From Glandiceps talaboti (lineage: Eukaryota; Hemichordata; Enteropneusta; Spengelidae): a DNA stretch of 64,000 nucleotides. Shown piece by piece: positions 48,201 to 51,200 of this stretch. The notes beneath the pieces were generated by a model. That model made no database searches, was not told the DNA's origin, and saw only the letters and a program-made list of their open reading frames with translations. Within the stretch, counting starts at the first letter, position 1. Each line of letters begins with the position of its first letter. A program made the translations under genes and the position numbers. The DNA lies in assembly GCF_964340395.1 (NCBI RefSeq), contig NC_135562.1, forward strand, positions 3,879,634-3,943,633, given 5' to 3'.

Positions 48201-51200
48201 AGAGGTGGTATCGTATTTCATGGATATATAAACATCCGGCAATAGCCTGCAGCTGTTCATATTAAACAATTATCCTGAGCAGGATGGGTACGGCACCTAG
48301 CATATCACATTGGATTGGCGGACACAGTGATTTCAGATTCAAAAGAAGCTTCTATCTTGGAGCTTTGTATAAAGATGCGGACGTTAAGGAGTCATATGAC
48401 AATGCATGTCACAGTAGCAAAATGGCCAACAACAGAAGTAAAGTGATGTTCCTAGGAGATTCCCGTACTGGAAAGACTAGCCTTCGACGATTATTAACCG
48501 GTGAAGCCTTTCAACCAAATGAACCAAGTACAAAAGGAATAGAAACAAAAATGTGTGAGACGAAAGTTGACTCCAACTGGAAAGAACGTAAAAAGAACAA
48601 AAATGAATTTGAAGAGGCGGCGTCTTGGCATACTGCAAAATCTATCCTGACATCAAACCCAACAACACAAGGCGTTAATATGAAGGTATTCGCAACTCCA
48701 AAGCATCTACCGAAGGACTTTTTGATACTTGTAAAATATATGTTCCCAATAGTAATTTTGTTTACAGTCATCCAGCCATACCGAGGGTTTGTATTTCCTT
48801 TCGTATTCCTTGTGTGGACTGTAAACCTGCCATTTGTGTTGTGGAACAGGGAGCTTCTGTTTTCGTACAGATATGGCACTGGCTTTGCTATGTCAATAGC
48901 TTTTGATGTCTACTTTCGGCACCATCTACAGTTAGGATTTCTGATGGCAAACCTTGAAACTCTGTCACTGAGAAGTACATTCGTAAGCTCAGTAACGTTT
49001 TGTGCTGTGATACTGGTCCTTTCGTTTGCAATGGGTGTTTCCATGAGTATGGGTTGCCGTCAAGGTATAGCATTTGCGCTTTGTTTGTTCCTATCTCCTG
49101 ACCTTCTACAAATCCCTTCAGGCCTAGAGTGGCCTTCTGCTTTTAATGTCGATTGGTTTGATTGGCACTGGGTTGTCGACACATTTCTTGCACGCTGTGG
49201 GTATTTTCTCAGCATTGTTATTCAACAGTATATAGTCACCACAAAACGCTCTTCTTTGATAGGAGCCGTGTGTTGCATGGTTGTGTTTGGATTCATATTG
49301 CAAACATTGAATGGTACATTCCCATTTGTAATTACATTCCTTTATGGCGTGCTCGCCGGCATTGGGTCTCTAAATGGCATATTCATTGGCAGACAGTTGG
49401 ACATCACTTACCCCTTCAATTATTGGGTGAACAGGACTGTTGGGATATGTATAGGTTGTTTTGCTGCATATTGCATGGGCTGGAAAATATGGTGTCCTGA
49501 GCTCTCTGTGTTGTCTCTCTTCATTTATATGTTTTCTGCACTAAGTCATCCTCTCGTCGACCTATATATTTTCCTTCAGGTAAGACATGTACAAGTAAAG
49601 CAAAATATTCCAATTGTGCGTGTCAGAGATGCTATGATAGAGCATGCTAAAGGTGCAACAAACCTTCCAATGACACTAAGTCTTTGGGATTTTGCTGGGG
49701 AGAAACTCTATTACTTCACCCATCACATATTCCTAGCCAAACATGCGATATACCTCCTTGTTTTCAATATGAAAGATGCTATCGTGAATCGAAAAGCTCA
49801 GTTACAGAGAATTGTATTCTGGTTGCAGTCGATCTTCGTTCATTCAAAGCATAAAGATTCCGTTGTCTTCCTGGTTGGCACACACAGAGACAGCATCGAG
49901 AAAAGTGATGTGGTAAAAATGTCCAAGTATCTTGATAAAGAAATTAAAAAAGTAAGGAAATTTTATGACCGTGTGGTTGTGAATGGCTCCACGCAATCTC
50001 ACTTGTTTCCCATTGAAAATTCTAAGCCACTTGATTCAGATGCTGAAAATCTTCGAAACCACATATTGAAATTTGCCCATCAGAGTGAATATGTACAAGA
50101 AGAGATTCCATTAAATTTCCTTCAATTTTACGAAACCATTCAACAAAAGCGGAAAAAAGGTCAGGAATATCGACTCACTGAGGTCTTTTGTCGATATAAA
50201 GACGTGCTAGAACTTGTTTTACGTAAACATAAATACTGGGATGAACATCGTGTTAAGGGTATGCTAAATTTCTTTCATAACGCAGGAGAAATAATCTATC
50301 GGTCAGATGATGATGACTTGGGGAAGTTTGTAATTTTTGATCCACAGTTTCTCATAGATGTGATGAAGAATTTCTTGCAAGTCCCAGTGCTGTCCGAAAT
50401 ACCGGTTGATATGAAATCATCATGGGATGCTTTGGAGGAAAAGGGGTGTGTCGATAGTCGTCTTATGACGAATCTTGCCACACTGATGGGATTGTCCTCA
50501 GAGCAGCTTGCCTCGCTGTTAATGGCCTTTGATCTAATTTGTCCAGTTCCTGGGCCATGTCATGATACTGTGCCCATCTATATCGTCCCATACCTGTTGC
50601 CAGATCACAGTACAAATCATTTCCATTGGTGGGTATCTAATACTGACGACGACACTTTCTATTTTGATTTCGAAGACTTGTTACCAAGCATTGTATTTCC
50701 ACGCCTCTTAGCCAGATGTATTAACTCGTCTAAGGTGGTCGACCCTTCCGTCCAAACAGATGTATTTTCAGATACAGGATTCTTCTCATTCCATGATGAC
50801 ATCACATTTAAACTAGAAATCAAGAGTAACCCACCAAATCAAAATCTGATAAAAGTTACAGTCCAAAGAGCACCAGGAAGCACCTCGAGAGAATTTCTGA
50901 CGTGGTTGATGACTCAGATCAACGCAATCAGAAGTAGGGATTTCCAGTACCTTAAATACACATTCGGAGTGCAATGTCCTTTACAGCATAAAGGTGCTAT
51001 GTATGGACAGAGACTGCATATCATTAAGCTTGCTGCGAGTGATCAAGAGTTAATACAAGAAGATTCACTGTCTTGTCTCTGTATGTCTAGAAGGTTAGAG
51101 ATTCAATACATCCCCAAGATTGTGTACTACACCATGGCTACCATCCAGCCATGCAAAGAAAAACAGGACTAAAGAGGATATAGATAGCATAGACATAAAT

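Follow-up and report, generated by a model that had tools for sequence, protein, structure and literature searches.

Can a GTPase carry a whole membrane domain inside its own G domain? GTPases reach membranes through lipid tails, through adaptors or through an anchor at one end. The question was raised by a single open reading frame (ORF) in the acorn worm Glandiceps talaboti. The window analysed is a stretch of 64,000 nucleotides (NC_135562.1, positions 3,879,634 to 3,943,633 of the forward strand), a section of the contig called C15 here, in a 590-Mb genome. The ORF lies on the plus strand at 48284-51172, encodes 962 amino acids (aa) and is present exactly as claimed by an earlier reading of the window made from its letters (the sequence-only reading); the frame is already open six codons upstream of the ATG. 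The order of its parts is an N-terminal Roc half, a membrane block, a C-terminal Roc half and a COR region. The observation was confirmed: the ORF encodes a Roco protein, and about 300 residues of predicted membrane helices interrupt its Roc domain, a GTPase.

The Roc domain was identified with Pfam. PF08477 matched the window protein at 62.8 bits (cut-off 27), with the match divided in two by the insert. When residues 45-103 and 458-600 were joined and the insert omitted, all 119 positions of the Roc model (1-119) were matched in one stretch at 74.9 bits. The joined flanks were aligned with the Roc domain of LRRK2 in one continuous alignment (E = 5.5e-14), with a four-residue gap at the junction. 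The motifs named by the sequence-only reading were all found, G1, DFAG and THRD at the residues it gave (58, 469 and 533) and PSTKGIE at 81. Across 27 of 27 genes, G58, G63, K64, T65, T83 and G85 before the insert and D469, G472 and T533 after it are invariant. Because these residues are intact on both sides of the break, the sequences argue that the split GTPase folds and works. The junction lies between the strand after G2 and the strand ending in G3, that is, in the β2-β3 hairpin, and because of this the insert is placed by sequence in the interswitch, past the G2 threonine, with neither switch I nor switch II broken. A broken switch region had been proposed; the insert does lie within Roc, in the interswitch hairpin and not in switch I itself. 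The open frame is not due to chance, as a 900-base piece of the insert was shuffled and 0 of 20000 shuffles stayed open in frame.

Hydropathy was computed in 19-residue windows. Nine non-overlapping windows with a mean of at least 1.25 were found within residues 146-425 and one elsewhere (742-760); with Roc matched on both sides, this bears out the proposed polytopic membrane domain in Roc. The block was folded alone with AlphaFold (13 sequences), giving a fair model with a mean predicted local distance difference test score (pLDDT) of 73.6 and a predicted template modelling score (pTM) of 0.72. In this model the fifth transmembrane helix (TM5) consists of residues 259-268 plus 272-275, and there is an extra short helix at 217-227. 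Lysines and arginines (K+R) were counted in the loops between helix cores at 146-164, 168-186, 197-213, 234-254, 259-275, 296-314, 324-342, 348-367, 384-402 and 407-427, over the 28 rows of an alignment of the family described below. In the ten-helix model the loops that face the same way as the termini hold a mean of 12.6 K+R, against 2.9 for the opposite loops, and the direction agrees in 28 of 28 rows. An odd helix number was rejected: nine spans fit poorly, with four such models about level (6.6-8.7 K+R on the termini side and 7.8-9.2 on the other). Of two eight-span models, one that drops spans 3 and 5 does as well as the ten-helix model (14.4 vs 3.2 K+R), and one that drops spans 2 and 3 is weaker (11.5 vs 5.3). 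Hydropathy, the AlphaFold model and charge bias thus favour an even number of predicted helices with both ends cytosolic, as the sequence-only reading had expected. The best count is ten, with the fifth helix broken; eight also fits.

The genome of G. talaboti was searched with the window protein (50 match rows, 47 of 69 candidates scored), and at least 23 places of the same build were counted by reading: three on C15, six on C7, one on C12, one on C16, three on C9, two on C4, one on C14, four on C22, one on C17 and one on C8. Sequence was read for 17 of the 23, the remaining 6 being known from search matches only. The insert is carried in an open frame, of 846-988 aa, at 15 of the 17; L020 is interrupted by a run of N, and in L023 the frame ends soon after G3 and resumes in another frame. 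In the protein database (E ≤ 0.001), 15 of 17 matches belong to the family. These are 14 proteins of Ptychodera flava (Ptychoderidae; one of them, P0015, is short), all carrying the same insertion, for which the sequence-only reading had suggested searching, and P0010 of G. talaboti (Spengelidae), which lies on C7 at 99% identity with its Death-domain exons at 93-97%. When the protein search was repeated with a profile of the family, P0018 was the single addition. Among the protein matches listed there was no Saccoglossus, amphioxus or echinoderm carrier, in a search that requires shared five-residue words and whose negatives are therefore weak. Some loci were set aside by eye: the twelve loci L024-L032 and L034-L036 hold Roc genes that lack the block, six of the eight in L001-L008 look like small GTPases, and L039, whose Roc match is divided between exons, looks like a Rab-type gene. 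Many open frames of about 430-580 aa, clustered at C4:15.6-16.7 Mb and C12:16.4-17.6 Mb, match mainly the region after Roc (COR-A) and form a separate expanded family.

The alignment (A1) holds 28 rows from 27 genes of two acorn-worm genera, and the block is present in frame in all of them. A tree was made of the 27 genes; P0010 and L012 are one gene, which entered the tree as L012. The species are intermixed. L012 clusters with five genes of P. flava (support 90/99), L013/L014 cluster with four (96/94), and the starred branches require that the species label changes at least twice. A separate group consists of six G. talaboti genes, and the long branches of L022, the window gene and L016 are placed less certainly. 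Because the two species are intermixed, the tree fits an insert that predates the split of Spengelidae and Ptychoderidae.

Selection was estimated from the ratio of nonsynonymous to synonymous substitution rates (ω) in five pairs of copies. Values for the block were 0.43, 0.38, 0.33 and 0.28; the fifth pair was saturated at synonymous sites. Outside the block ω was 0.13-0.32, so that the block is the less constrained part, and by these ratios it evolves under purifying selection. Mean pairwise identity (351 pairs) was 0.59 in the first half of Roc, 0.24 in the linker, 0.25 in the block, 0.48 in the second half of Roc and 0.38 in COR; the linker aside, the block is the most variable part. Within it all 27 genes share G251 and have an acidic residue at 426, while G261, G365, G369 and G391 are kept in 25-26 of the 27 and R196, R259 and R370 in 22-24. 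Such variability around fixed residues is a pattern that a sensor diversifying on a constant frame might show.

These data bear on another reading, in which the block would be an intron, or would belong to a rare isoform, and the working protein would be an ordinary soluble Roco. The length of 48686-49579 is divisible by three, and an acceptor-like TTTTCCTTCAG ends at 49579. The sole donor-like GTRAG within residues 90-140, however, is at 48555, and its use with 49579 would remove 1025 bases and shift the frame. The block is in frame in every row, ω is below 1 in four of five pairs, and the charge bias of a membrane protein is seen in all 28 rows. It is retained in the 14 P. flava protein models and in NCBI isoform X2 of G. 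talaboti. Because the frame is unbroken, selection is purifying and the NCBI models keep the block, this reading is disfavoured and we consider it highly improbable. A read-through artefact was rejected on the same grounds. An intein was ruled out, the insert being hydrophobic throughout and outside the conserved motifs.

Domains after Roc were assigned with Pfam and by structure. The window protein has no Pfam COR-B match, and its COR-A match is under the cut-off (Table 1); in five scanned relatives COR-A scored 23.2-30.4 bits, with none in the short P0015. The full-length AlphaFold model matches the Roc-COR of LRRK2 and of Chlorobium Roco, placing a COR fold right after Roc. A Death domain is precomputed in 11 of 15 family proteins found. 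In Pfam scans of six proteins it was above cut-off at the C-terminus of P0001, P0009, P0010 and P0012; P0003 and P0015 (the short one) were without it. Of 17 G. talaboti genes examined, 6 are followed on their 3' side by Death exons: L012 (in its neighbouring stretch L033), L013, L014, L015, L019 and L022. The downstream sequence covered was short for several of the 17 and next to nothing for L038. Another Death match is close to, and downstream of, a family copy at C7:12427745-12430542 whose middle is inverted (plus, minus, plus), either a rearranged gene or an assembly error. No leucine-rich repeats (LRR), kinase or ankyrin repeats were matched by Pfam (E ≤ 1) in the window protein or in the six scanned relatives.

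Table 1. Features of the split Roco protein, with positions in the window and residues of the 962-aa protein.
Feature	Position	Residues	Strand	Evidence
N-terminal Roc half (β1, P-loop, G2, β2)	48440..48592	53-103	+	Pfam Roc match
G1/P-loop GDSRTGKTS	48455..48481	58-66	+	motif; G58, G63, K64, T65 invariant in 27/27 genes
G2 PSTKGIE	48524..48544	81-87	+	motif; T83, G85 invariant in 27/27 genes
Linker from β2 to first membrane helix, basic toward membrane	48593..48697	104-138	+	model, charge count
TM1 (predicted)	48698..48772	139-163	+	hydropathy, model
TM2 (predicted)	48785..48841	168-186 (hydropathy), 173-186 (model)	+	
TM3 (predicted), weakly hydrophobic, contains YRYGTG motif	48854..48928	191-215	+	hydropathy, model
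TM4 (predicted); G251 invariant in 27/27 genes	48977..49048	232-255	+	model
TM5 (predicted), broken helix, GxRxG motif, least certain span	49058..49108	259-275	+	model, charge count
TM6 (predicted)	49163..49243	294-320	+	model
TM7 (predicted)	49253..49309	324-342	+	hydropathy, model
TM8 (predicted); glycines 361, 365, 369, then R370	49325..49408	348-375	+	model
TM9 (predicted); glycines 387, 391	49421..49474	380-397 (model), 386-404 (hydropathy)	+	
TM10 (predicted); acidic residue 426 in 27/27 genes, basic stretch after	49508..49600	409-439	+	hydropathy, model
C-terminal Roc half (β3, G3, G4)	49658..49891	459-536	+	Pfam Roc match
G3 DFAG	49688..49699	469-472	+	motif; D469, G472 invariant in 27/27 genes
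G4 THRD	49880..49891	533-536	+	motif; T533 in 27/27 genes, D536 in 20/27
COR-A	50216..50599	645-772	+	Pfam, 26.2 bits, E 8.5e-6, under cut-off 35.3
COR-B-like region	50648..51043	789-920	+	alignment to P. flava P0001/P0003 (COR-B matches sub-cut-off), model

The membrane block itself was compared with known families. Pfam searches of 14 copies gave nothing convincing (best E 0.061), and a sequence search of the PDB with the block profile gave one row, an insulin-induced gene protein (E 0.054), which was not trusted. No stand-alone relatives of the block were found at E ≤ 1 among 7674 candidates, in a search that reaches only proteins of 0.55-1.75 times the block length. Two block queries against this genome recovered family members only. 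PADLOC gave nothing on the window protein or the block, Rfam gave nothing in the window, and NCBIfam, run on the window protein and P0012, gave only a sub-cut-off match of P0012 to small_GTP. When the block was used in fold searches, nothing rose above noise, which is no proof that the fold is new. The block may represent a new membrane-protein family. The sequence-only reading had likened the bundle to a channel or transporter, for which there was no clear fold match. In a further reading the GTPase would gate the bundle inside-out, and the bundle would act as a channel, transporter or scramblase, for example to permeabilise a membrane in cell death. This would agree with the ten-helix size, the broken fifth helix with its GxRxG motif, the glycine repeats of TM8 and TM9 and the conserved charges in or near helices; we consider it unlikely.

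By its domains the protein is a Roco; its build appears new. DAPK1 carries a Death domain, and the C-terminal Death domain of the relatives resembles DAPK1. Like LRRK1/2, DAPK1, MFHAS1 and bacterial Roco (PF08477 and PF16095), the window protein has Roc with the usual G motifs and then COR; it differs by the ten or so predicted membrane helices within Roc, and no LRR, kinase or ankyrin was found. The nearest precedent for membrane helices inside a P-loop domain is given by the KAP NTPases (Kidins220/ARMS and bacterial Tmn). Neither this precedent nor the family of 23 places and the Death domain of many of its members had been noted in the sequence-only reading. Aravind et al. 2004 is reportedly a paper on these NTPases, whose P-loop domain we take to be PF07693. 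No KAP family was among the Pfam matches of the window protein at E ≤ 1. In the available parts of three sources, KAP NTPases have inserted helices, two in Tmn and four in Kidins220, and are linked to signalling and defence (PMC8195603, PMC11846954, PMC4632323). They are another P-loop family with two or four helices, whereas the window protein is a Ras-like GTPase with about ten, by prediction. SR-beta and Arl10 are Ras-superfamily GTPases held by a membrane region, which, in the accessible portion of PMC8358228, is N-terminal and ahead of the GTPase domain, not within it. The sequence-only reading knew of no described family of this form, which agrees with the open-access literature: among the matches listed there was no multi-helix membrane domain inside Roc or another Ras-like GTPase domain, subscription papers being mostly outside the search. 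The available main text of the paper on two hemichordate genomes, including that of P. flava, is without the words GTPase, death and transmembrane (PMC11175523).

Length between G2 and G3 was compared in soluble relatives. The stretch had been described as a short loop in known Roco proteins, which holds only in part. In the TIR-Roco P0016 the stretch from G1 to G3 spans 143 residues and lacks strong hydrophobic segments. The G. talaboti genome also encodes a soluble Roco, L037, whose first part is 46% identical to residues 32-103; at the position of the insert it has hydrophilic open frames, which may or may not be exons. Because of L037 and P0016, the sequences suggest that the β2-β3 hairpin tolerates extra length. 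Both also favour a bundle that is a mere membrane anchor, without sensing or gating, tolerated because the hairpin of soluble relatives already had a long variable linker. Linkers of about 20-35 residues flank the bundle, and brown-algal Roc domains range from 77 to 467 aa through truncations or insertions (PMC11378527). An anchor would, however, need far fewer than ten helices, and the conserved glycines and charges of the bundle (G251, the acid at 426, R196, R259 and R370) suggest a function of its own. The anchor is rather unlikely in our view.

A possible second case was found in P0018, a Roc-COR-like protein of 738 aa known from one gene model on a 4164-base ENA contig. Strongly hydrophobic segments lie at residues 108-126 and 142-160, between the P-loop (18-25) and a G3-like DCGGQ, and three weaker hydrophobic windows lie elsewhere. 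Roc (20.3 bits) and COR-A (31.1 bits) are both below cut-off. P0018 gave no alignment to the acorn-worm bundle, and as a query in the G. talaboti genome it matched only regions after Roc. It is a lead only, and might represent an independent insertion of two helices along the same lines. If it is real, the hairpin gained membrane helices more than once and would be a general entry point for building membrane switches.

How might such a protein work? The membrane bundle would be the input and would sense something in or across the membrane (a ligand, a lipid, damage, an ion or voltage). It would then shift or stiffen the hairpin that joins switch I to switch II, acting as a lever. The idea of a lever comes from the interswitch movement of Arf GTPases. 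The change in the hairpin would set the nucleotide state of Roc, COR would alter the contacts in the dimer, and as the output cell-death or immune adaptors would be recruited by a Death domain, either in the protein itself or in a partner. A membrane-embedded Roco switch of this kind, with the bundle as a sensor that acts through the interswitch hairpin on Roc-COR(-Death), is proposed tentatively, with a confidence just short of even. The broader proposal, a G domain built round a polytopic sensor or pore, in which a membrane event sets the GTP state (or GTP gates the bundle) and a COR-Death tail leads to cell-death signalling, is possible and is held with clearly less than even confidence. 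That bundle and GTPase are coupled, which way the signal runs and that it leads to an immune or cell-death output are inferred, the last because of the Death domain, the multiplication and fast divergence of copies, and the published view of Roc-type (AP-) GTPases. Invader-sensing GTPase switches, including these, are discussed for animal and bacterial conflict systems in the available text of PMC8195603. The present data cannot separate a sensor, a bare anchor and a GTP-gated pore.

Several observations weigh against a sensor coupled to the GTPase. The AlphaFold model of the whole protein (16 sequences) has a mean pLDDT of 61.8 and a pTM of 0.37 and is poor in the split Roc; because pLDDT is below 50 around it (residues 45-64, 70-145 and 433-487), the hairpin junction is not visible. 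The spans for the charge count were picked after the hydropathy profile had been viewed, which weakens the count as a test. A 35-residue linker precedes the bundle and about 20 residues follow it, and these could uncouple the bundle from the hairpin. The G4 aspartate D536 is present in 20 of 27 genes and replaced in 7, and some copies may therefore differ in how they bind guanine nucleotides, or may have lost this binding. Average ω is below 1 and gives no hint that positive selection has acted on the putative sensor. Finally, the window gene is without a convincing Death domain; the entire window was searched, and the best match (E 0.53) is on the opposite strand.

The lack of a Death-domain exon elsewhere in the window also agrees with a decaying duplicate, whose own function, but not that of the family, may be lost. 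A copy 92% identical lies on the same chromosome (C15:1460072-1462501), and the third C15 copy, L023, has the broken frame described above. Against decay, 962 codons are open with all G motifs present, and ω to the 92% copy is 0.04 over 100 Roc codons and 0.28 outside the insert. P. flava P0003 is likewise without a Pfam Death domain, so that members without one may be normal. Decay of the window copy is distinctly improbable in our estimate.

The remainder of the window was inspected by eye. Between 37000 and 62000 on the minus strand, F5/8-type (discoidin)-like exon ORFs lie near 39.7, 43.4, 53.1-53.3, 53.8, 55.1, 57.1 and 59.7 kb, and a WSC-like ORF lies at 61.2 kb on the same strand. The Roco gene may lie in an intron of a discoidin gene on the opposite strand, or between such genes. 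Similar pairs of plus-strand ORFs at 1158-1604 and 17535-17927 (TSP1/EGF-like by eye) and at 5804-6271 and 21933-22439 suggest tandem duplication of a gene for a secreted or surface protein across 1-30 kb. Microsatellite-like stretches at 4561-5885, 8898-9336 and 10937-12816 give repetitive ORFs.

In the architecture predicted here, the polypeptide between the two switches of a G domain contains a whole membrane domain. The protein family is related to LRRK2, the Parkinson's protein, and the insert would physically tie a molecular switch to the membrane. How Roc and COR transmit signals in Roco proteins is still unclear, according to the accessible part of PMC6320773. The finding bears on that transmission and on possible threat detection by acorn-worm Death-domain proteins. 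The architecture makes it testable whether a membrane domain can drive a Ras-like switch through the interswitch hairpin.
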